Shown piece by piece: positions 32,900 through 42,716 of a stretch of 59,070 nt of DNA (position 1 is the first letter of the stretch; every line of letters begins with the position of its first letter). The DNA is taken from NCBI GenBank assembly GCA_947089855.1, contig CAMUML010000024.1:1-59070 (forward strand). The letters are read 5' to 3'. The stretch comes from an uncultured Eubacterium sp. Its GTDB lineage: Bacteria; Bacillota; Clostridia; Lachnospirales; Lachnospiraceae. The translations under genes and the position numbers were made by a program. The notes under the pieces are model-generated. The model had not been told where the DNA came from. It did no database searches and was given only the letters and a program-made list of their open reading frames with translations.

Positions 32900-32951
32900 T
32901 TGACAAAACTGTCTAATGGTGTTAGACTCATATTGTCTAATACAATTAGAC
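32900..32951 (+). promoter_or_regulatory. Promoter with two operators for the blaI-M56 operon
   Basis: TTGACA (32900-32905), 17-bp spacer and TAGACT (32923-32928) form the promoter. Operator 1, GTCTAATGGTGTTAGAC (32911-32927), fills the spacer and -10 box. Operator 2, GTCTAATACAATTAGAC (32935-32951), covers the start region. Each is a 6-5-6 inverted repeat with the same arms, 24 bp apart start to start. Binding by the BlaI-type repressor encoded next is inferred from position and symmetry. Confidence 0.8.
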
Positions 32952-33025
32952 GGCTTTCTAGGCAGCTGCGCTCCGGTGCATTTCAATATTGGAAGATGTT
33001 GGTTTTCCAGAAAGGAGGAGTTTTT

Positions 33026-33406
33026 ATGAAACCCTATCAATTAGGTGAAATGGAAAAAAAGTTTGCGGATATGCTATGGGAGAAAGCTCCCATTGCTACG
33101 AGGGAGGTGGTAAAATTATGTGAAGCAGCTTTTGGGTGGAAGCGGACAACGGCTTATACGATGCTAAAACGGCTATGCGACCGGAACTTGTTTGTAAATA
33201 CAGGCGGTATGGTAACTGCCCTGATGCCAAAGGAAGATTTCCAGGCGGCACAGGGGGAACAATTTATCAATGAAACGTTTGACGGTTCGCTGCCGCAGTT
33301 TTTAGTCGCGTTTTGCAGGCGCAGGAAGCTAGGGAAACGGGAAATTGTAGAATTGAAGAAATTTATTGAAGGCTATGAAGACGATAAGGAAGGAGGCAGC
33401 TTATGA
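33026..33406 (+). CDS. BlaI/MecI-family transcriptional repressor
   Basis: This 126-residue winged-helix repressor matches the BlaI/MecI/CopY family: YQLGEMEKKFADMLWEKAPI, then a recognition region KRTTAYTMLKRLCDRN, and a dimerisation tail (FCRRRKLGKREIVELKKFIE). In known systems the partner membrane protease causes the repressor to be cut when a signal is bound. The start at 33026 is fixed by AAAGGAGGAG; the reading extends upstream through the promoter, which cannot be coding. Two operator-like palindromes lie 75-115 bp upstream. It overlaps the M56 gene by 4 bp (ATGA), which suggests coupled translation. Confidence 0.93.
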   Translation: MKPYQLGEMEKKFADMLWEKAPIATREVVKLCEAAFGWKRTTAYTMLKRLCDRNLFVNTGGMVTALMPKEDFQAAQGEQFINETFDGSLPQFLVAFCRRRKLGKREIVELKKFIEGYEDDKEGGSL

Positions 33407-35670
33407 CCAAGGTCTTTATCCGTGTTTTAAATATGAGCCTGACTGGGGGCATTGTTATTTTAGCTGTCTTGTTGTTACGGCTGTTTTTGAAAAAAGCACC
33501 GAAAATCTTTTCCTATTGCCTGTGGGCGGCTGTCCTGTTCCGGCTGCTGTGCCCCGTATCTTTTACTGCGGGCTTCTCCCCTTTTGCCATGTTAAAGGCG
33601 CCGTTTCCACAGCAGGTAGAACCAGGATACCTTTCCGTAGGCTTGGAATCCGAGTGGCAGCCAGTCCGTTGGAATAGGGTTTCCAGCCAATCCTCGGACA
33701 GCTTAAGCCAAGGCAGCCAAGGCGCCGCAGACGAAAAAATAGTGGAAACAGGGCAAAAGGAACTGCCCATCCGCATGGGTGCGGTACTTTGGATACTTGG
33801 AGCCAGCCTGCTGGCAGGTTCGAGCGTGCGGGCTTACTTGAAATTAAAACGGCATTTAAAAGGTTCGGTATGGGTAACGGAAAATATCTATACGGCTCCA
33901 AGCATTGCTACCCCATTTGTTACCGGTATTTTCCGGCCGTCTATTTATCTGCCTTCCCACCTTGGAGCGGAAGGACGGGCTTATGCGCTGCTCCATGAGC
34001 AAGTACATATTAGGCGGGGCGACCATATTTTAAAATTGATTGGATTTTTGGCCTTGTGCATCCACTGGTTTAACCCGCTTGTATGGGCTGCTTTTATCTT
34101 AAGCAGCAAAGATATGGAAATGTCCTGTGATGAAGCGGTGATCCGTAAGATGGGCGCTTCTGTGAAAAAAGGGTATGCAAACACCCTGCTAGCTATGGCA
34201 ACTGGAAAGGCGGCAATCAGCGGCACCCCGCTTGCTTTTGGGGAAGGGGATGTTGGCAGCCGCATTAAAAATGTCCTCCGGTACCGGCAGCCTGCAGCTG
34301 TTGCCGTAAAAGCTTTAACACTTATCTGTGCCGCTTGTGTGGCCATTTTGCTTGCAAACCCGTCTGTCAATGCCAAAACAAGTTTTGCCAGCCAAAAGGC
34401 AGCTGGTTCCGATGTAAAGAAAAACCCTGCGAAAAACAAAACAGCGCAGCCAAAACAAAATACTGCCCAAAACCAGGCGGCACAGCCAAAACAGGTTACG
34501 GGCAAGGACCAAACAGCGCAGCCAAAACAAAGCGATGTCAAGCTTTATGAGATGTCGATACGCAGCATTGCACAAAAGGAACGGACGGTTGATTCCTATG
34601 TCCCTCCGTTTCAATCCCAAAAAAGCAAGTATTTTAAAGGTGGCAGGCCGCTTGCAATTGCAGATAACTGCCAGTTCCTGGTAAACTTCAGTATGAATAG
34701 GAATCCGGTAGATAGCTACCAGGAGGTTACGTTTGGCCAATTTGCAGACCTGGTCAATAAAAGCCCGCAGGAGTTAAATAAGCCATGTATGGTTCAGATA
34801 GCAGGCGGACAAATCGTTTCTATTGCTTTAAAAAGCGCCTGGTACGATTATGGCATTTCCCCAGCTGATAGCGTACCGTATGCTACAATTTATGATACGC
34901 TGGCCGCTAAAGGGGAAAGCGCTTTTTCCAAACATTATTCCAAGGTTTCTTCCAAACGTCTGGATATAGCAGACAGGGATGGTATGGAAACCGTGGAAAC
35001 CTATATATCAGATGATAAGGACAGCGGCGTTGTGCTGATACGGGATAAGGATGGCCAAGTCCTTAACACCCAGGATGCTTCTACCGCAAGGGCCGGATGG
35101 AAAAATATATACGTTGGCAGTACAAAAGAAGGTGGTTTTATCCTAAATGTAGGTATCGAAGACCGCTTTGATTACGGCCTCTACAGCTATAGCGTCTACC
35201 GGCTGGACCAGGAAGGCAAATACCTGCTTGGCGCTGGTTCTGAATTTGAATTCCATCTGGGTGGGGGCAGCGATCTTATTTATGATGATTCCGTATTGAA
35301 AGAGTGGCTGAAACCAATGGGCTATTACCTGCAAAACAGCCAGTTGGTTTTAAGCACCCAGGATGGGGCCATACGGACAGAAGCTGTGTCAGAGGCAGGC
35401 AAGTACAATTACGGGACTTTAAACCTAAAAGGAAGGGCATTGGAAATCAGTGCTTCCGATAAGGATATGGTCCATTTCCATGATAACTGGTATAGTAAAA
35501 AAATATTGCCGGAAAAAACCGTCGAGTGGCTATCCTGGTATAACCAGCTGCCAGAGGAAGAACAATTGGCCGTCAGTGCTGTTCCAAAGGGGCTGCTAGA
35601 TTGGCCAAATAGCGCTTGGAAAGCCCAAAAGGATGCGGCTGCTGGAAACTTGGCCGCAACTACGCCATGA
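33403..35670 (+). CDS. BlaR1-like M56 membrane metallopeptidase with an unrecognised ectodomain
   Basis: This 755-residue protein has a BlaR1/MecR1-like membrane protease part: helices at about 12-30, 35-53 and 124-142, the zinc motif HEQVH (198-202) with a likely third ligand in SCDEA (about 244), and a fourth helix (301-319). After a linker with three AQPKQ units (about 348-376), some 375 residues lie outside the cell. In BlaR1 this part is a penicillin-binding domain; I see no SxxK/SxN/KTG set here, so the signal is probably not a beta-lactam. It shows repeated Tyr, Gly and Asp-rich beta-like segments (GLYSYSVYRLDQEGKYLLG). It presumably triggers loss of the BlaI-type repressor encoded just upstream. 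Confidence 0.88.
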   Translation: MTKVFIRVLNMSLTGGIVILAVLLLRLFLKKAPKIFSYCLWAAVLFRLLCPVSFTAGFSPFAMLKAPFPQQVEPGYLSVGLESEWQPVRWNRVSSQSSDSLSQGSQGAADEKIVETGQKELPIRMGAVLWILGASLLAGSSVRAYLKLKRHLKGSVWVTENIYTAPSIATPFVTGIFRPSIYLPSHLGAEGRAYALLHEQVHIRRGDHILKLIGFLALCIHWFNPLVWAAFILSSKDMEMSCDEAVIRKMGASVKKGYANTLLAMATGKAAISGTPLAFGEGDVGSRIKNVLRYRQPAAVAVKALTLICAACVAILLANPSVNAKTSFASQKAAGSDVKKNPAKNKTAQPKQNTAQNQAAQPKQVTGKDQTAQPKQSDVKLYEMSIRSIAQKERTVDSYVPPFQSQKSKYFKGGRPLAIADNCQFLVNFSMNRNPVDSYQEVTFGQFADLVNKSPQELNKPCMVQIAGGQIVSIALKSAWYDYGISPADSVPYATIYDTLAAKGESAFSKHYSKVSSKRLDIADRDGMETVETYISDDKDSGVVLIRDKDGQVLNTQDASTARAGWKNIYVGSTKEGGFILNVGIEDRFDYGLYSYSVYRLDQEGKYLLGAGSEFEFHLGGGSDLIYDDSVLKEWLKPMGYYLQNSQLVLSTQDGAIRTEAVSEAGKYNYGTLNLKGRALEISASDKDMVHFHDNWYSKKILPEKTVEWLSWYNQLPEEEQLAVSAVPKGLLDWPNSAWKAQKDAAAGNLAATTP

Positions 35671-35707
35671 AGATTTTCTGGAACGGATTTCCCTTTTATG
35701 GCTTTAC

Positions 35708-35749
35708 AAACAGCCCGCAGATACTGGAATAAATACCTGCGGGCTGTTT
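35708..35749. terminator. Bidirectional terminator between convergent genes
   Basis: AAACAGCCCGCAG and CTGCGGGCTGTTT form a perfect 13-bp stem around a 16-nt loop between the M56 gene and the convergent MMPL gene. The A and T runs are part of the stem, as in two-way terminators. Confidence 0.75.
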
Positions 35750-35758
35750 GGCCTTATG

Positions 35759-38700
35759 CTACTCACGGTACAGTCCAAACAAATTTAAGAATTTCTGCCA
35801 TGCTGTAAGCTTCTTTTGCGCCTCCGGCATTCCCTCACTGGCTTCTTCCTTCTGAATGCCGTTCGTCTTCATTACAAACTGCACGCTTTGAACATTTGTA
35901 TTTTTCTCCGATACAAAAGAAACCGCCGCAAAATCTCCTCCTGTCACGGTTTCGACCAGCCCGTCAATTTGATCCGCAACTTCCGTATCCATGCCCTTGG
36001 TTTCCGCCCTCATCGTGGAAGTCCCCTCTTTCAATTCACCGACGCCGTCAGAAAGCTGCGCAATGCCAAACAAAAGCTCTGCAACGCCATCATCTAATGT
36101 TCCGGTCCCGTCCTTTAGTGACCCTGTCCCATTGTATAGTTCCACAATACCGGAAAGCAATTCGCCCGTCCCGCTGTATAAGCTTTTGCTGCCTGTTTTT
36201 AACGCGCTGCTTCCGGCAGCCAGCCCAGACACTCCATCTGTGATCTGTGAATAGCTTGCGGCAATCTTAGCGACAGCATCTGTATAACCGCCAATCCCCC
36301 GGTCCAGCTTCCCGTATTCAGAGACTAAGCTATTTACGGCAGAAGAAAGCTCTGACATCCGGTAAGCCAAACTTCTAATAATATTTGCCAGTTCCCCTAT
36401 TTTAACATCAAAAGCCGCATAACTTTGCTGCAGGGCTGTTGCGCCATGCAACAAAGAAGATAAATTGGCATTTGCTGCCTCCAAATAGCTTTCGGTTCCG
36501 CCTATGCTGGCATTGTTAGCTCCTAATAAGGAAATTATGCCAGAAAGCTGTGAAACCTGAGATTCTATTTCTGATGTATTTATCCCGGCATTTTTAAGGG
36601 TTTCTATTTGCACGGCCAAGGACGCGGCCAGTCCTTCCAGACTGCTTGCCGCATCTTCATTTTTTTGCCGTAGTCCGTCAATATCCAGGCCGTTTTGGGA
36701 CATCACAGCCTTATAAGCATTAAAATTTACGTTGTTTTTCAGGTCAGTGGCCCCGGTTACAAGATTGCCGATCCCAGTTTTAATTGCTGAAGACGCATCG
36801 GTCAATGCGCTTATATCCTCTGTTGCCAAAGATACCCCGCCTAACGCTTTCTGAAGCTGTAAAAGCGCCGCCTGAAAAGAAGCCGAACCATTTACCAATT
36901 CTGGCGACTTCTGGTTCAAGGCAGCCAGCGCCTCCTGCATTTGCACGATTCCGCTGTTTAGGGAATGAATCCCTTCGTCCAGCACATTTATGCCATTTTG
37001 CAGGTCAGCGGCGCCATTTTGCAAATTGCTTCCGCCCTCTTTTAACTCTGCGGCGCCGCTATAAAGCTGCCCCGCCCCATTTTTCAAATCCTTCACGCCG
37101 CTTTTTAGTCCGGACTGCGCGCCGTCTTGTAGATCCGAGGCGCCATCCTGCAGTTTGGACGCCCCGTCGTCTAACTGGCTGATTGCGTCCAACAGTTGCG
37201 CAACCTGATCCATCAATTCTTCATCCTCTACTTCAATATTAAGGTTCAGCGGGATTGCGTTGATCGACATCCCGTCCATTTCAAACGCAGATACTTTTGC
37301 GGTAATCCTAATGTCTGCGCCTTTTCCGGGCAGGACCGTATAGGTGAGCTGCTTCTTGCTTCCAACATTTGCAATCGTAGCGTCTGGGGCAACAATTTCT
37401 TTGCATAGATCCGTATCGAATGACAGGGAAGCCTGCAACGCGTAATGGTCGTAGAAACCGCCCTGGCATTGCCGGTTCTGCGCAATGCGGATTGCCATTT
37501 TCAGATTACCGCTTTTACCTGCAATTTCCTCCGCCGTATATTCTTTGCCGTCCAAAAAATAACGTATCTGAATATCCCACGGCATTTCCAGGCTTTCCAG
37601 TTTTCCTTCGTAATAAAGCTTTTCGGCGGACGGACGGATTTTTACAGTACCGCTAGAATAATCAACCGTATCTGTCGTCGTCATATTCCGCACATCCGAA
37701 TAGTTTCCGTAGTCGATAATTTCCTCTTTTGTATTGTCTCCAAAAATATTGACAACATGGATTTCTTCTACCAATCCGTCATTTCCCATATTTACATAGA
37801 CAACTTCTTCTTTCTCTGTGTTTGCTTCCATGGCGGACACAGAAATAGGCAGGGCAGCTGCAAAAAGGGCAGACGCAAGAAATACAGATATAAAATTTTT
37901 CAGGTGAAACCGGTTCATGGCCATTACCTCCCTATGAAATACAAATTTTTTATGTTTCTGTTTTTTCTTCGTTCCTGTAATCCACTGGTCAAACAAAAAT
38001 AACAGGCCAGGAAGGACCAGCAGCACAACTGCTAATGAAAATATAGCGCCGCGGCCTATAAAAATGCCGAGCTGTGCCAAAAGCTGGTTCGTAGAGACAT
38101 ATCCCAGCAGTAATCCAACTACAGTCAAGGCACTGCCTGATGTCAAAATAGATACGGTGACGTCTGAAACGGTCTGGCGGACAGCCTCTTTTTTCGGCAG
38201 GCTCCTGCGGTTCTCTTTGTAACGGTCTGTCATTAAGATTGCATAATCAACGGTCGCGCCAAGCTGGATCGAACTGATAATCAGGTATGCGATATAGAAA
38301 ATGGCCTGATCCATAAAATACGGGCACGACAGATTCAGCCAGATTGCCGTTTCTATGCCCAATACCAGAATAACGGGCAGCATAACGGATCTCATTGTCA
38401 AAAGGAGGATGATAAAAACGGCGGCAATTGCAGCCAAATTGACTTTGACCATATCTACCGTTACGGTATCCATCAGGTCATACGTACTGGCCCCCTCCCC
38501 TGCAAGATACCATGTATCGGGGTAATGGGACTGCGCAATGTTCCGTATTGACTCTACAAGGGAAAAGGTTTCTTCCCCTTCATAGGCGACGTCCACCGAA
38601 AGCGCCATCCGGCTGTAATTTTCACTCATTATCTGAGACAAGGTATCTTCGTTAAGATACTCCAAAGGAATTTCTGCTCCAGCCAGATCCACATAGGATA

Positions 38701-39997
38701 GAATACTTGTAATCTGAGGAAGTTCATGGAGCTCATCCGAAAGCGCCGTCTCTGCAGCGGTATCGCCACGGGGGACCAGCAGCACATAGGTGTCCCGTTG
38801 GCCGAATATTTCCTCAATCGAAGCTATATCCCTGCCAAGCTGTGTTTCCTCATTAAAGATTTTGGATGACCCGTAATAATATTCATTCGCATTTGACCCC
38901 AGATATGCCGGAACCATGACAACTGCAAACAGGCACACCATTGGGACTGCGATACGGCTGACTGCCTCCCCAAATTTCCGGAAACCAGGCACAAACGGCC
39001 GGTGCTTTGTTTTATCCAGCCATGGATAAGCTGCCAGAATAAGGGAAGGCATAAACAAAAATACAACGATAAGGCTTACCGCTACGCCTTTTGCCAGCGC
39101 AAACCCCAAATCCGGCCCGATTCGAAACTGCATCAGCGCCAACGCCAAAAAACCGATGACCGTTGTCAATCCGCTGGACAGGATTGAAGACGTGGATTTG
39201 CATAAGGCGTGTACCATAGCCTCCTGTGTATCCGCCATCCCCTTCCTGCATTCTTCAAACCGATGGATTAAAAATACGGAATAATCCAGCGAAACCGCAA
39301 GCTGGAGGATGCTTCCAGCCGCATTGGTAACAAAGGAAATCTCTCCAAACATCAGGTTCGTCCCGTCATTGATTACGATCGCTATCCCCAGGCCGGTCAA
39401 TATCATCAAAGGCTCCGCCCATGAGCCGGTTGTTAAAATCAGCACAAACAATACAAACAGCACAGCGACCACCGCAATTTTCTGGATTTCTGAGACAGTG
39501 TTCAAAGTCGCCGCCGCCGTAGAAATGGCGCTCCCGGACATGGCATTTTCATCACCGATGATTTTACGTATATCAGCTGCCGCGCGGATCCGGCTTTCCT
39601 TTTCTATTGTTACGGTGAACAGGGCTGTATGGTCCATATAATATGTTTCGAGCGTATCCGGATCCATCATGCTGGCCGGGAGCGTAATGTCCACCACGTC
39701 ATCCAGCCATGCTACATCCGTAACGCCGTCCACGGCTTTCAGCTTCTCCTTATATTCTAAAGCCTCGGGGATTGTGACATGGTTTACCATAACGCGGGCA
39801 TTCGGAATCCCTCCCTCAAATTCCTGCTCCATCACCTCCAACGCAGCAGTTGATCTGGCTCCTTTGGGCAGGTAATCATTCATATCATAATTGACAGCCA
39901 CAAAATTCTTTAATACGGCGCATGCGGTTGCCAATATAAGAAAAAAGGTCAGGATCCATTTCCGGTGCTTGACAACGCCTTGATAGAACTTTCTCAA
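35759..39997 (-). CDS. MMPL/RND-family transporter joined in frame to a secreted repeat protein
   Basis: This 1412-residue reading frame has two distinct parts. Residues 1-693 form a complete MMPL/RND exporter with two sets of six membrane helices (SLDYSVFLIHRFEE and TVDYAILMTDRYKENRR match the family). The rest (from ATG 37918, 719 residues) begins like an independent secreted protein: MNRFHLKNFISVFLASALF and a signal-peptide end at SVSAMEA. It continues with a beta-rich domain, then long GxxxLxxG repeats (LQDGASDLQDGAQSGL) like those of YhgE/Pip proteins. The junction retains a ribosome site. Translation most likely starts at a TTG (39997) behind TGGAGG, not at the far upstream ATG. Substrates are unknown; lipids or peptides are usual for MMPL. 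Confidence 0.85.
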   Translation of the reverse strand: MRKFYQGVVKHRKWILTFFLILATACAVLKNFVAVNYDMNDYLPKGARSTAALEVMEQEFEGGIPNARVMVNHVTIPEALEYKEKLKAVDGVTDVAWLDDVVDITLPASMMDPDTLETYYMDHTALFTVTIEKESRIRAAADIRKIIGDENAMSGSAISTAAATLNTVSEIQKIAVVAVLFVLFVLILTTGSWAEPLMILTGLGIAIVINDGTNLMFGEISFVTNAAGSILQLAVSLDYSVFLIHRFEECRKGMADTQEAMVHALCKSTSSILSSGLTTVIGFLALALMQFRIGPDLGFALAKGVAVSLIVVFLFMPSLILAAYPWLDKTKHRPFVPGFRKFGEAVSRIAVPMVCLFAVVMVPAYLGSNANEYYYGSSKIFNEETQLGRDIASIEEIFGQRDTYVLLVPRGDTAAETALSDELHELPQITSILSYVDLAGAEIPLEYLNEDTLSQIMSENYSRMALSVDVAYEGEETFSLVESIRNIAQSHYPDTWYLAGEGASTYDLMDTVTVDMVKVNLAAIAAVFIILLLTMRSVMLPVILVLGIETAIWLNLSCPYFMDQAIFYIAYLIISSIQLGATVDYAILMTDRYKENRRSLPKKEAVRQTVSDVTVSILTSGSALTVVGLLLGYVSTNQLLAQLGIFIGRGAIFSLAVVLLVLPGLLFLFDQWITGTKKKQKHKKFVFHREVMAMNRFHLKNFISVFLASALFAAALPISVSAMEANTEKEEVVYVNMGNDGLVEEIHVVNIFGDNTKEEIIDYGNYSDVRNMTTTDTVDYSSGTVKIRPSAEKLYYEGKLESLEMPWDIQIRYFLDGKEYTAEEIAGKSGNLKMAIRIAQNRQCQGGFYDHYALQASLSFDTDLCKEIVAPDATIANVGSKKQLTYTVLPGKGADIRITAKVSAFEMDGMSINAIPLNLNIEVEDEELMDQVAQLLDAISQLDDGASKLQDGASDLQDGAQSGLKSGVKDLKNGAGQLYSGAAELKEGGSNLQNGAADLQNGINVLDEGIHSLNSGIVQMQEALAALNQKSPELVNGSASFQAALLQLQKALGGVSLATEDISALTDASSAIKTGIGNLVTGATDLKNNVNFNAYKAVMSQNGLDIDGLRQKNEDAASSLEGLAASLAVQIETLKNAGINTSEIESQVSQLSGIISLLGANNASIGGTESYLEAANANLSSLLHGATALQQSYAAFDVKIGELANIIRSLAYRMSELSSAVNSLVSEYGKLDRGIGGYTDAVAKIAASYSQITDGVSGLAAGSSALKTGSKSLYSGTGELLSGIVELYNGTGSLKDGTGTLDDGVAELLFGIAQLSDGVGELKEGTSTMRAETKGMDTEVADQIDGLVETVTGGDFAAVSFVSEKNTNVQSVQFVMKTNGIQKEEASEGMPEAQKKLTAWQKFLNLFGLYRE
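37918..37932 (-). promoter_or_regulatory. Internal ribosome binding site and start inside the MMPL reading frame
   Basis: GGGAGGTAATGGCC stands directly before ATG 37918, which opens a classic signal peptide. The spacing from GGAGG is about 8 bases, ideal for initiation. A TAG lies just before it in another frame (about 37933). The second half can thus be made as a free 719-residue secreted protein. Confidence 0.7.
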
Positions 39998-40131
39998 TAT
40001 TTGATACCTCCATTCACGTTCTGCGGCGGTCCCGCCGCTTTCATACTGTTTCGGTCTCCCAGCAGCAATGGCTGGATTATCTGGACGGTTACCATTCCCA
40101 AGCCATGATCCATTCCACGAAGGGGACAATG

Positions 40132-40161
40132 TTGACATTTCGACAGTGTCTATATTATAAT
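40132..40161 (+). promoter_or_regulatory. Promoter of the TetR gene with a palindrome in its spacer
   Basis: TTGACA (40132-40137), 18-bp spacer, TATAAT (40156-40161), followed by a leader of about 90 nt to the TetR start. The spacer contains GACAGTGTC (40142-40150), a candidate TetR operator. On the other strand ATTATAAT could also serve the MMPL gene, so one site may control both. Confidence 0.6.
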
Positions 40162-40257
40162 GGTAAAAACCACTTAAGTTCCAGAACAATCTAGCTGCAG
40201 GTGTAGATATTCCGACAATCTGGAGCAAAATGTAGAAATTTCAGGAGAGTAAAAACG

Positions 40258-40854
40258 ATGAAGGTAAGAAATTTAAACGCATCCTCCCACAAAACAAGAC
40301 AGCTGATCAAGGATACCTTTGCCCAGCTCCTGCATGAGAAACGCAATGTTTCTAAAATCAGCGTTACGGAGCTGGTAAAATGTGCAAATATCAACCGCAG
40401 TACCTTTTATTCGCATTTTGACGATATTTGGCAGGTTGCAGAGGATATAAAAGCCGAAACGATGAAAGCCTTCTTTGAAAACAAGACGATTGCAAGCTTA
40501 AATGATATTGAGCCCTTTTTAGACGAAATTTACCGTTATATTAGGAAAAATGACGACCTGTTCCGTCTTATTTTCATATCCGACGAGGTAACGGGCTTTG
40601 TACAGCGTCTCGGGAACATCTGCAAGGGCAAAGTATATACGGCGTTTTTGAATGACCCTACAGTGGCAGACAAGGACTTGCTCGAACTTGAAATATCAAC
40701 TTTTTCCGACGGCATGGCGATGCAGTTTATCCGCTACTACCACAATGATTATAATGTTTCGCTTGAAAATATCATAACCTTTGCCAAAATATGGAGCAGG
40801 GAAATCATCCTCCGCAGAACGTCCAAAGCTGTAAAAAAACGGGAAAATGCTTAA
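40258..40854 (+). CDS. TetR/AcrR-family regulator, divergent from the MMPL gene
   Basis: This 198-residue regulator has the N-terminal helix-turn-helix of the family (TRQLIKDTFAQLLHEK, ISVTELVKCANINRSTFYSHF). The C-terminal ligand-binding part is like those of TetR C-terminal type regulators in Firmicutes (LFRLIFISDEVTGFVQRLGN). Its start follows AGGAGAG. It is transcribed away from the MMPL gene, the usual layout for a repressor of a transporter. Its last codons overlap the convergent ftsH-type gene: both stop codons lie in one CTTAAG. Confidence 0.92.
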   Translation: MKVRNLNASSHKTRQLIKDTFAQLLHEKRNVSKISVTELVKCANINRSTFYSHFDDIWQVAEDIKAETMKAFFENKTIASLNDIEPFLDEIYRYIRKNDDLFRLIFISDEVTGFVQRLGNICKGKVYTAFLNDPTVADKDLLELEISTFSDGMAMQFIRYYHNDYNVSLENIITFAKIWSREIILRRTSKAVKKRENA

Positions 40855-42704
40855 GAGCCTGCATGGAATCCGTTTTTATAACGAATATCCTGGTTCCCTA
40901 ATATTTCCATAAATTCTTCGCCGGTGATGGTTTCCTTTTCGTACAGAAATTTCGCAAGTTCATTTAATTTTTCACGGTTTTCCAGCAGAATTTCTGTTGC
41001 CTTTTCATGCTGTTTTTTCACCAGTTCCACTACCAGACGGTCCACCCTTGCCTGCGTTTGGGCAGAACAGGCGAAAGCTGCATCACCTCCAAGATATTGG
41101 TTATCCACTGTTTCAAAAGCCACCATGCCAAAGTCGTCGCTCATGCCATAACGGGTAATCATTGCCCGGGCCAGTTTGGTTGCCTGTTCAATGTCATTGG
41201 AAGCACCTGTGGAAACAGTGCCGAAAATAATTTCTTCGGCAGCCCGCCCGCCAGTATAAGTTGCAATTTTATTTTCAATTTCCTCCCTGGTCATAAGGTA
41301 GTGGTTATTATCCTCCACCTGCATGGTATATCCCAGTGCGCCAGAGGTCCGCGGAATAATCGTAATCTTCTGTACCGGGGCCGATTGTGTCTGCTTTGCA
41401 GCCACCAGGGCATGGCCGATTTCGTGGTAAGCTACCGTCCATTTCTCCTTGTCCGTAAGGATTGCATTTTTCTTCTGGTATCCGGCAATGACCACCTCTA
41501 TACTTTCTTCCAGATCAGCCTGGGTGGCATATTTGCGTCCATCCCGCACCGCCCGCAGCGCTGCCTCATTCACAATATTGGCCAGCTCTGCGCCAGAGGC
41601 TCCGGAAGCCATGCGGGCAATCTGTTGGAAGTCAGCGTCTCCAGATATTTTGATTTTTTTCGTATGGACTTTCAAAATAGCCTCCCGTCCTTTCAAATCC
41701 GGCAGTTCCACTGGCACACGGCGGTCGAACCGTCCTGGGCGGGTTAGTGCAGGGTCAAGGGATTCTGGCCGGTTGGTAGCTGCCAGAATGATAACGCCGG
41801 TGTTGCCTTCAAAGCCGTCCATCTCTGTCAGAAGCTGGTTTAATGTTTGTTCCCTTTCGTCATTGCCGCCCATCTTCCCAGAATTCCGCTTCTGTCCAAT
41901 CGCGTCAATCTCGTCAATAAATACGATGCAGGGAGCTTTTTCTTTTGCCTGCTTAAACAAATCCCGCACCTTAGAGGCTCCCATGCCCACAAACATTTCC
42001 ACAAACTCCGAACCAGACATCGAAAAGAAAGGGACGCCTGCTTCGCCTGCTACAGCCTTGGCCAGCATTGTCTTGCCGGTACCGGGAGGGCCTACCAGAA
42101 GAATGCCTTTTGGCATAGATGCACCAATCTCTTTATATTTATCCGGGCTGTGGAGATAGTCCACAATCTCTGCCAGATTTTCTTTTGCCTCATCCTCGCC
42201 TGCCACATCAGAAAACTGGATGCCATCAGAAGATTTTACATATACTTTGGCATTGGATTTCCCCATACCAAACATCATGGAATTGGGCCCGCCTGCTTTT
42301 TCCATCATCTTTTTGGACATCCGATGCCCCAACCATGCAAAAATGGCAATTGGCAGCACCCAGCTTAACAGAAAACTAAGAAACGGAGACATCTGCTCTA
42401 CAATCTCACTGGAAAAAACGGCACCGGATTCTTTTAGACGGTAGATCAGGTCCGGGTCATTCATCAGGCCAGTCTTATAGATTTTTGTGTCATCTTTATC
42501 CGTGAACAGAATCTGGTTGTCCTGTATTTCCACACGTCCAATTTCCTTATTTTCACTCATTTCCATAAAAGCGCCATAGTCCACCTTCCGGATCTGCCTC
42601 TGGGCCAGCCATGGCATAGCTAAGAAATTAAACAGCATCAGCACAAGAATGACGATGCCATAGTAATAGAGCAATGGCTTTTTTGGAGTTTTTATTTCGT
42701 TCAT
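40851..42704 (-). CDS. FtsH-type ATP-dependent zinc metalloprotease
   Basis: FtsH proteases pull damaged or regulatory proteins through an AAA ring and cut them at the membrane. This 617-residue protein has two membrane helices (about 11-33 and 107-126), Walker A GPPGTGKT (205-212), Walker [11 protein letters not shown], the arginine-finger region TRPGRFDRR, and the zinc motif HEIGH (427-431), where most FtsH proteins have HEAGH. Its second-region helix SRH is also normal. The start at 42704 is set by GGGAGGGATG; the ATG 6 bp upstream is too close. It follows a small gene by 12 bp. The Ile in the zinc motif and the location away from hpt/tilS suggest a second, accessory copy. Confidence 0.93.
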
Positions 42705-42716
42705 ATACATCCCTCC

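Follow-up and report, generated by a model that had tools for sequence, protein, structure and literature searches.

On the minus strand of the stretch of DNA considered here (the window: 59,070 nucleotides of contig CAMUML010000024.1, from an uncultured Eubacterium sp. of the Lachnospiraceae), an efflux pump of the MMPL family reads straight into a secreted repeat protein, which we call the rod. Our view, which we hold to be likely, is that this locus represents a two-gene export unit of the Clostridia, made up of a compact pump and a secreted hairpin, and that the two frames have merged here through a spacer that is one base shorter than in the nearest relatives. The passage of substrates of RND/MMPL pumps across the thick Gram-positive wall is little explored, and the secreted hairpins that accompany MMPL pumps in gut Clostridia are a family that offers a concrete candidate for the missing stalk; the pump family is already known, and it is the proposed stalk in trans that would be new. 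Judged from the genomes compared below, the pump–rod pair looks like a widespread, little-described partnership, and we found no paper that describes it among the titles and abstract openings of the literature within reach, which leaves out most subscription journals.

What does the joined frame encode?

No stop interrupts the frame between TTG 40228 and its end at 35759, and the mechanical open reading frame accordingly reaches 40228. Within it, 693 pump residues are followed directly by ATG 37918 and a secreted protein of 719 residues, so that the frame stays intact over 1412 residues, and the in-frame join of pump and repeat protein described in an earlier note on this DNA is real. The secreted part also keeps start signals of its own, as that note had proposed: a GGAGG Shine–Dalgarno site at 37931-37927 stands 8 nt before ATG 37918, and the N terminus, MNRFHLKNFISVFLASALFAAALPISVSA with M as the next residue, reads by eye as a standard signal peptide. 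A GGAGG likewise precedes TTG 39997, the most likely start of the pump and the end of the span that the earlier note had set out. We prefer this start because the frame above it is closed within 0-32 codons in all 13 relatives whose upstream DNA was printed, and on this ground we rejected an extension of the pump upstream to TTG 40228. In loci L039, L037, L036, L040, L085, L082 and L047, inspection by eye suggests a short conserved reading frame that terminates immediately ahead of the pump; none was noticed in the window.

By its sequence matches the pump is a member of the known MMPL family, and its 12 helices are assigned on that basis. Pfam MMPL (PF03176) matches in two stretches with an E-value of 6.5e-55 and 186.8 bits against a cut-off of 20.5, the best sequence matches in the Protein Data Bank (PDB) are MmpL4 and MmpL5, and the residues that are invariant in the pump alignment are kept in the window. 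By hydropathy, hydrophobic segments at residues 11-37, 164-371 and 511-676 flank extracellular stretches at 38-163 and 372-510, and the second of these, at about 140 residues in all, has no room for a coiled-coil insert of 196 residues. The pump ends in a lysine-rich tail, TGTKKKQKHKKFVFHREV, which under the positive-inside rule is presumably cytoplasmic, and the hydrophobic stretch that follows at 697-725 of the joined protein is the signal peptide of the rod. A related class of pumps, seen in L216, L217 and L218, has a C-terminal tail of short GxVxGxVxG-like repeats that look bactofilin-like by eye.

The rod itself was aligned over its whole length in 30 members; this alignment omits the rods of L060, L061 and L080 (890-989 residues), those from loci found by genome search, and those of uncertain start or frame. 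An N-terminal hydrophobic stretch is present throughout, the N-terminal domain has invariant residues, and the C-terminal strand (consensus SFVSEKNTNVxSVQFVIKT) is followed in most of the 30 by an amphipathic WQKFLxLFG-like tail. We found no convincing match for the N-terminal domain in Pfam or the PDB, nor is it covered by any NCBIfam match in the tables shown for the scanned rods, and it is present in 112 of 392 genomes of the order at a threshold of 1e-15. No LPXTG motif was seen in the rod, and hydropathy gave no C-terminal hydrophobic segment.

The LxxG repeats on which the earlier note dwelt are real: rod residues 226-660 contain LxxGxxxLxxG 18 times, whereas 5000 shuffles of the same composition gave 0.11 on average and never more than 3. 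In addition, TIGR03057 (X-X-X-Leu-X-X-Gly heptad repeat) matches with 76.4 bits against a cut-off of 18.6; it is the sole NCBIfam model above its cut-off, and 28 of the 30 rods match it at 1e-4. A Pfam match to COG6_N, borderline at its cut-off with 27.4 bits, looks like cross-matching between coiled coils. The likeness to YhgE/Pip that the same note had drawn goes no further than the long LxxG heptad repeats which those proteins also have, and we rejected the assignment, since no YhgE/Pip model in Pfam or NCBIfam matched the rod at E 0.1 and the C-terminal hydrophobic segment is absent. Homology of the rod coil with the pump coil of TIGR00833 was also considered and was not used; there are weak matches in L040 and L083, both of which match SMC and other coils better.

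Do the pump and the rod belong together?

The answer appears to be yes. Linkage was examined in the 30 best-scoring of 112 matches to the rod N-terminal domain, the window included, and all 30 adjoin an MMPL pump, which bears out the suggestion that the two parts belong together. The pump lies directly upstream of the rod, within 1.5 kb, in 26 of them; of the others, L251 has a gene between pump and rod, L250 leaves about 1.5 kb between the two, and L252 and L253 have the reverse order, rod before pump. The linkage therefore survives both an altered gene order and an intervening gene. The clusters of L252 and L253, with the rod first and then the pump, have a protein with choline-binding repeats ahead of them (domains tested in L252) and a divergent TetR gene, and the intervening protein of L251 (L251:1574-3871) contains five peptidoglycan-binding stretches and a weak SpoIID match.

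Is the rod a hairpin?

Between invariant anchors, the lengths of arm 1 and arm 2 of the rod correlate with a Pearson r of 0.996 across the 30 rods, the pairs of lengths being 148/143, 127/122, 119/115, 98/94, 91/87, 84/80 and 80/73, with two (98/93 and 99/101) that fall off the pattern. Among 15 sister pairs chosen by identity, all seven with any change show the same sign in both arms, and six of these seven agree to within one residue; in 29 of the 30 rods, arm 2 has 122 residues or departs from that length by whole heptads. The length of the middle segment does not track the arms (Spearman -0.57 and -0.53). A further 30 rods, of which 11 failed on anchors and one was a duplicate, gave an r of 0.935 for the 18 that passed the anchor filter and of 0.905 for all 30, with clear misfits (for example, L117, L256, L136 and L232), and arm 2 followed the same heptad rule in 24 of them. 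In an antiparallel two-stranded coil, heptads have to be gained and lost in pairs, and on the strength of this covariation we conclude that the rod is an antiparallel coiled-coil hairpin, in which the array at residues 249-323 would lie against that at 566-632; there is one proline in 433 rod residues. The proposal that the repeat protein is rod-like thus finds support in the covariation of its arms. With a helix rise of 1.5 Å per residue, arms of about 112-124 residues would extend for about 17-18 nm; were the 203-residue middle segment to continue the hairpin, the length could reach about 32 nm.

How did the two genes come to be joined?

The loci compared were gathered from named GTDB contigs (49 loci) and by searches of the genomes of 41 relatives (the window's own genome included), 13 genomes of the genus and 397 of the family. 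Junctions were read by script, and 15 were printed with translations. Our principal count is of 54 non-redundant loci, the window included, with a pump identity of at least 50% and a readable junction; it excludes loci with an unreadable pump end or rod start, duplicates sharing the last 60 nt of the aligned pump, later-collected loci and the damaged loci L073, L053/L009, L077, L071 and L012, and it treats L088, which the script had flagged as fused, as separate, because a TGA is present. Pump and rod are separate genes in 52 of the 54 and fused in two, the window and L075, so that the possibility that all relatives have only the fused form is excluded. None is fused among 14 more distant loci at 40-50% pump identity or among 45 below 40%, and the distance from pump stop to rod start is -17 to +18 nt in 42 of the 50 separate loci for which it was measured. 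The fusion is thus a rare local event. The window's own genome holds a divergent, paralogous pump–rod pair as two genes, and fusion is not widespread in this paralogue class, in which stops divide the genes in five printed loci and none of the 45 loci below 40% pump identity is fused.

In all three of the closest relatives, L039, L037 and L007 (84-86% identity over the aligned pump), the pump frame runs across the GGAGG and the ATG of the rod and meets its stop 14 nt into the rod gene, and the spacer that follows GGAGGTAAT has five bases (AAACC) where the window has four (GGCC). The pump and rod frames are in register in the window because this spacer is one base shorter. The earlier note had proposed that a single small indel joined two genes, and that part of the idea stands, given that a one-base difference explains the join; the TAG to which it had pointed does not have the part assigned to it. 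This TAG (37934-37932) is out of frame with the pump, and the three closest relatives, whose pump is in the same frame as that of the window across the position, have no TAG there and read through to their stop inside the rod, for which reason we rejected it as a lost pump stop. Programmed frameshifting and phase variation at an A tract were also rejected: up to the rod Shine–Dalgarno site the pump keeps the frame that it has in the closest relatives, and the difference in length lies in the spacer and not in an A run. A search for the junction pattern in viral contigs gave 0 matches, and an Rfam scan of 35000-41000 gave none.

What else could explain the locus?

Several observations weigh against a two-gene unit that has merged quietly in this strain. 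No rod was detected downstream of three orthologous pumps, those of L059, L065 and L093/L257, which would fit a rod that is dispensable or encoded elsewhere; in the divergent rod class, of which 20 members were tried, the coil could not be anchored and the LxxG repeats are mostly absent; and one weak terminator-like match (38021-38006) falls in the last pump codons, with one found against 5.1 expected by chance. The window genome is a draft of one strain, in 101 contigs and 89.7% complete, and damaged units occur in L073 (81% pump identity), in L053/L009 and L012 (same genus), and in L071 and L077.

The draft state of the genome bears on a first alternative, namely that an error of assembly or sequencing has produced the fusion and that pump and rod are in truth two overlapping genes here, as they are in the nearest relatives. 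These relatives do differ by a single base of spacing, and the record of L037, with its pump in two frames and an A run in the rod that is shorter than in L039, probably contains sequencing errors of its own. However, GGCC in place of AAACC is not what the collapse of a homopolymer would leave; the 22 genes (29.4 kb, from 455 relative reading frames tried) that could be compared with same-genus contigs showed no frameshift, which is a small control; and a second in-frame fusion is present in L075. We consider an error unlikely.

The damaged units suggest a different alternative, in which the unit is weakly constrained in this group, the junction has drifted and the fusion is an early stage of decay. 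L073:5076-7469 and L053:623-2902 (the same locus as L009) are deletion chimeras, open in frame from the first part of the pump into the last part of the rod; in L077 and L071 similar pump–rod deletions lead to a stop or a change of frame. Fragments of the rod lie in two frames in L012, with the pump absent from the stretch examined. Some close relatives have thus lost the unit or have it in damaged form, and the join in the window could likewise mark the beginning of such drift. Both parts in the window are of full length, though, and keep the residues that are invariant in the alignments, and the Shine–Dalgarno site, ATG and signal peptide are intact, which leaves decay, in our opinion, a quite unlikely explanation.

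It is also conceivable that the fusion is a functional single-chain protein, selected because it tethers pump and rod at 1:1. The frame is intact throughout, single-chain pumps with a coiled-coil insert do occur (L215, see below), and L075, a metagenome-assembled genome labelled Lapin-016 bin71 with 66% pump identity, offers a second fusion. Against this, only two of the 54 orthologues and none of the 59 more distant loci are fused, both fusions keep a Shine–Dalgarno site (G-rich in L075), an ATG and a cleavable-looking signal peptide, their linkers differ, and the coil of L215 sits in the second extracellular loop and not at the presumed cytoplasmic C terminus; we regard a selected single chain as very improbable.

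A last alternative concerns the rod and not the join: the secreted hairpin might be an adhesin or a structural protein of the wall, with nothing but a common operon to link it to the pump. The choline-binding wall repeats encoded in the L252 and L253 clusters and the peptidoglycan-binding protein of L251 would suit such a role, binding of the pump by the rod rests on inference, and there are the three pumps without a rod nearby. All 30 of the best-scoring loci are nonetheless linked to an MMPL pump, despite reversed order and an intervening gene, and we think this explanation improbable. The two-gene export unit with merged frames is therefore the reading that we carry forward.

How might such a unit work?

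The mycobacterial proteins MmpL4 and MmpL5, which have MmpS adaptors, provide the obvious models, being MMPL pumps, the closest by sequence among solved structures, and part of systems with an antiparallel helical hairpin, which here would be on the partner protein to judge from the covariation of the arms. In the accessible part of PMC12501195, the hairpin of MmpL5 is a 196-residue insert in the second periplasmic domain of the pump, and its deletion abolishes efflux; in the window, by contrast, the hairpin is a separate secreted protein with an N-terminal domain of its own. The accessible part of PMC12346298 describes a cryo-EM structure with a 125 Å hairpin and a trimeric needle, as well as MmpS5 and MmpL5 genes that overlap in one operon and are coupled in translation, a likeness to the partner genes considered here. 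On whether the hairpin reaches the outer layer, these two sources disagree in the parts available. An MmpS-like gene was not noticed in the unit of the window, where no search was aimed at it, and Rv0455c of Mycobacterium tuberculosis, which we compared by description only, is predicted to bind the side of the coil and not to be the coil. A second comparison is with L215 (G006:C43), a single-chain MMPL pump from the same genus that has a long region of helical repeats: about 430 residues of heptad-repeat, coiled-coil-like sequence are inserted at pump residues 440-456, in the second extracellular loop. Since the window pump has no such insert while its relative has one in the same chain, the stalk may well be supplied in trans.

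We can therefore sketch a mechanism. The first gene would encode the compact MMPL pump and the second a secreted antiparallel coiled-coil hairpin, which most likely docks on the exterior of the pump and conducts substrate from the membrane across the wall, as is thought for the hairpin of MmpL5. The ancestral genes would have overlapped slightly and were probably coupled in translation, and the one-base-shorter spacer would then lead the pump frame into the rod frame. Ribosomes may still initiate at ATG 37918. In the read-through product, the signal peptide would follow the presumably cytoplasmic tail and be oriented for insertion, with the site between SVSA and M exposed outside, and cleavage there would release the same mature rod from the fusion. 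From sequence we infer contact between pump and rod, docking, the role in transport, cleavage by signal peptidase and internal initiation alike, and if they hold the join is probably nearly silent, with an outcome close to normal. The fusion is accordingly of lesser weight than the partnership: it suggests that a difference of one base can be enough to merge overlapping partner genes, probably with little consequence, since the two products should still be separated by way of the signal peptide where they meet.

A bolder idea, which we put forward tentatively and with somewhat less than even confidence, is that clostridial MMPL pumps are split machines of the MmpL5 type, in which a length-adjustable hairpin assembles in trans into a stalk or tube that spans the wall, heptads gained or lost in pairs tune its length, and the genes have here been caught in the act of merging. 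As to substrates, our guess by analogy with FarE is that they are lipophilic, fatty acids for example.

Regulation and neighbouring genes

The features of the locus are collected in Table 1. FarE and FarR of Staphylococcus aureus, a Gram-positive system in which an MMPL/RND pump has a divergent TetR-family regulator, may resemble the present arrangement, with the differences that no secreted partner is mentioned in the accessible part of PMC10019231 and that the regulator in the window is weakly TetR-like. A divergent gene of this kind with a promoter-like site before it suggests, by analogy, regulation like that by FarR of FarE. Weak matches to the regulator-like protein appear in many loci; these are uncounted, and their positions were not all checked. 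Inverted repeats were looked for in the divergent promoter region, and nothing convincing was found.

Table 1. Features of the pump–rod locus, in window coordinates
Feature	Position	Strand	Basis or remark
MMPL (RND superfamily) pump, 693 residues to rod ATG, without its own stop	37919..39997	-	Pfam, PDB sequence matches, start TTG 39997
Junction: last pump codons overlap rod Shine–Dalgarno GGAGG; out-of-frame TAG	37926..37940	-	Sequence reading
Four-base spacer GGCC, after GGAGGTAAT and before ATG 37918	37919..37922	-	Against five bases (AAACC) in L039, L037, L007
Secreted hairpin (rod) protein, 719 residues, own stop	35759..37918	-	Frame, alignment, family scans, arm covariation
Rod signal peptide, residues 1-29, likely cleaved after SVSA	37832..37918	-	By eye; hydrophobic stretch
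Rod N-terminal domain, residues 31-228	37235..37828	-	No curated family found
Arm 1, residues 214-341 between anchors, LxxG array about 249-323	36896..37279	-	Covariation, repeat positions
Middle segment, residues 342-544 (203), variable, presumed distal part of hairpin	36287..36895	-	Length independent of arms
Arm 2, residues 545-668, LxxG array about 566-632	35915..36286	-	Covariation, repeat positions
Conserved C-terminal strand (SFVSEKNTNVQSVQFVMKT) and amphipathic tail WQKFLNLFG	35762..35920	-	Alignment of 30 rods, hydropathy
Promoter-like site TTGACA-18-TATAAT towards TetR-type gene	40132..40161	+	12/12 consensus positions; consensus match only
Divergent TetR-type regulator	40258..40854	+	TetR_C_8 0.0015, TetR_N 0.0061; weak, below Pfam cut-offs

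On the other side of the TetR-type gene, window positions 40851-42710 encode an FtsH-type AAA metalloprotease (Peptidase_M41). At 32936-35670 lie a penicillinase-repressor-type gene and a BlaR1-type M56 peptidase, the latter with a long C-terminal extension.

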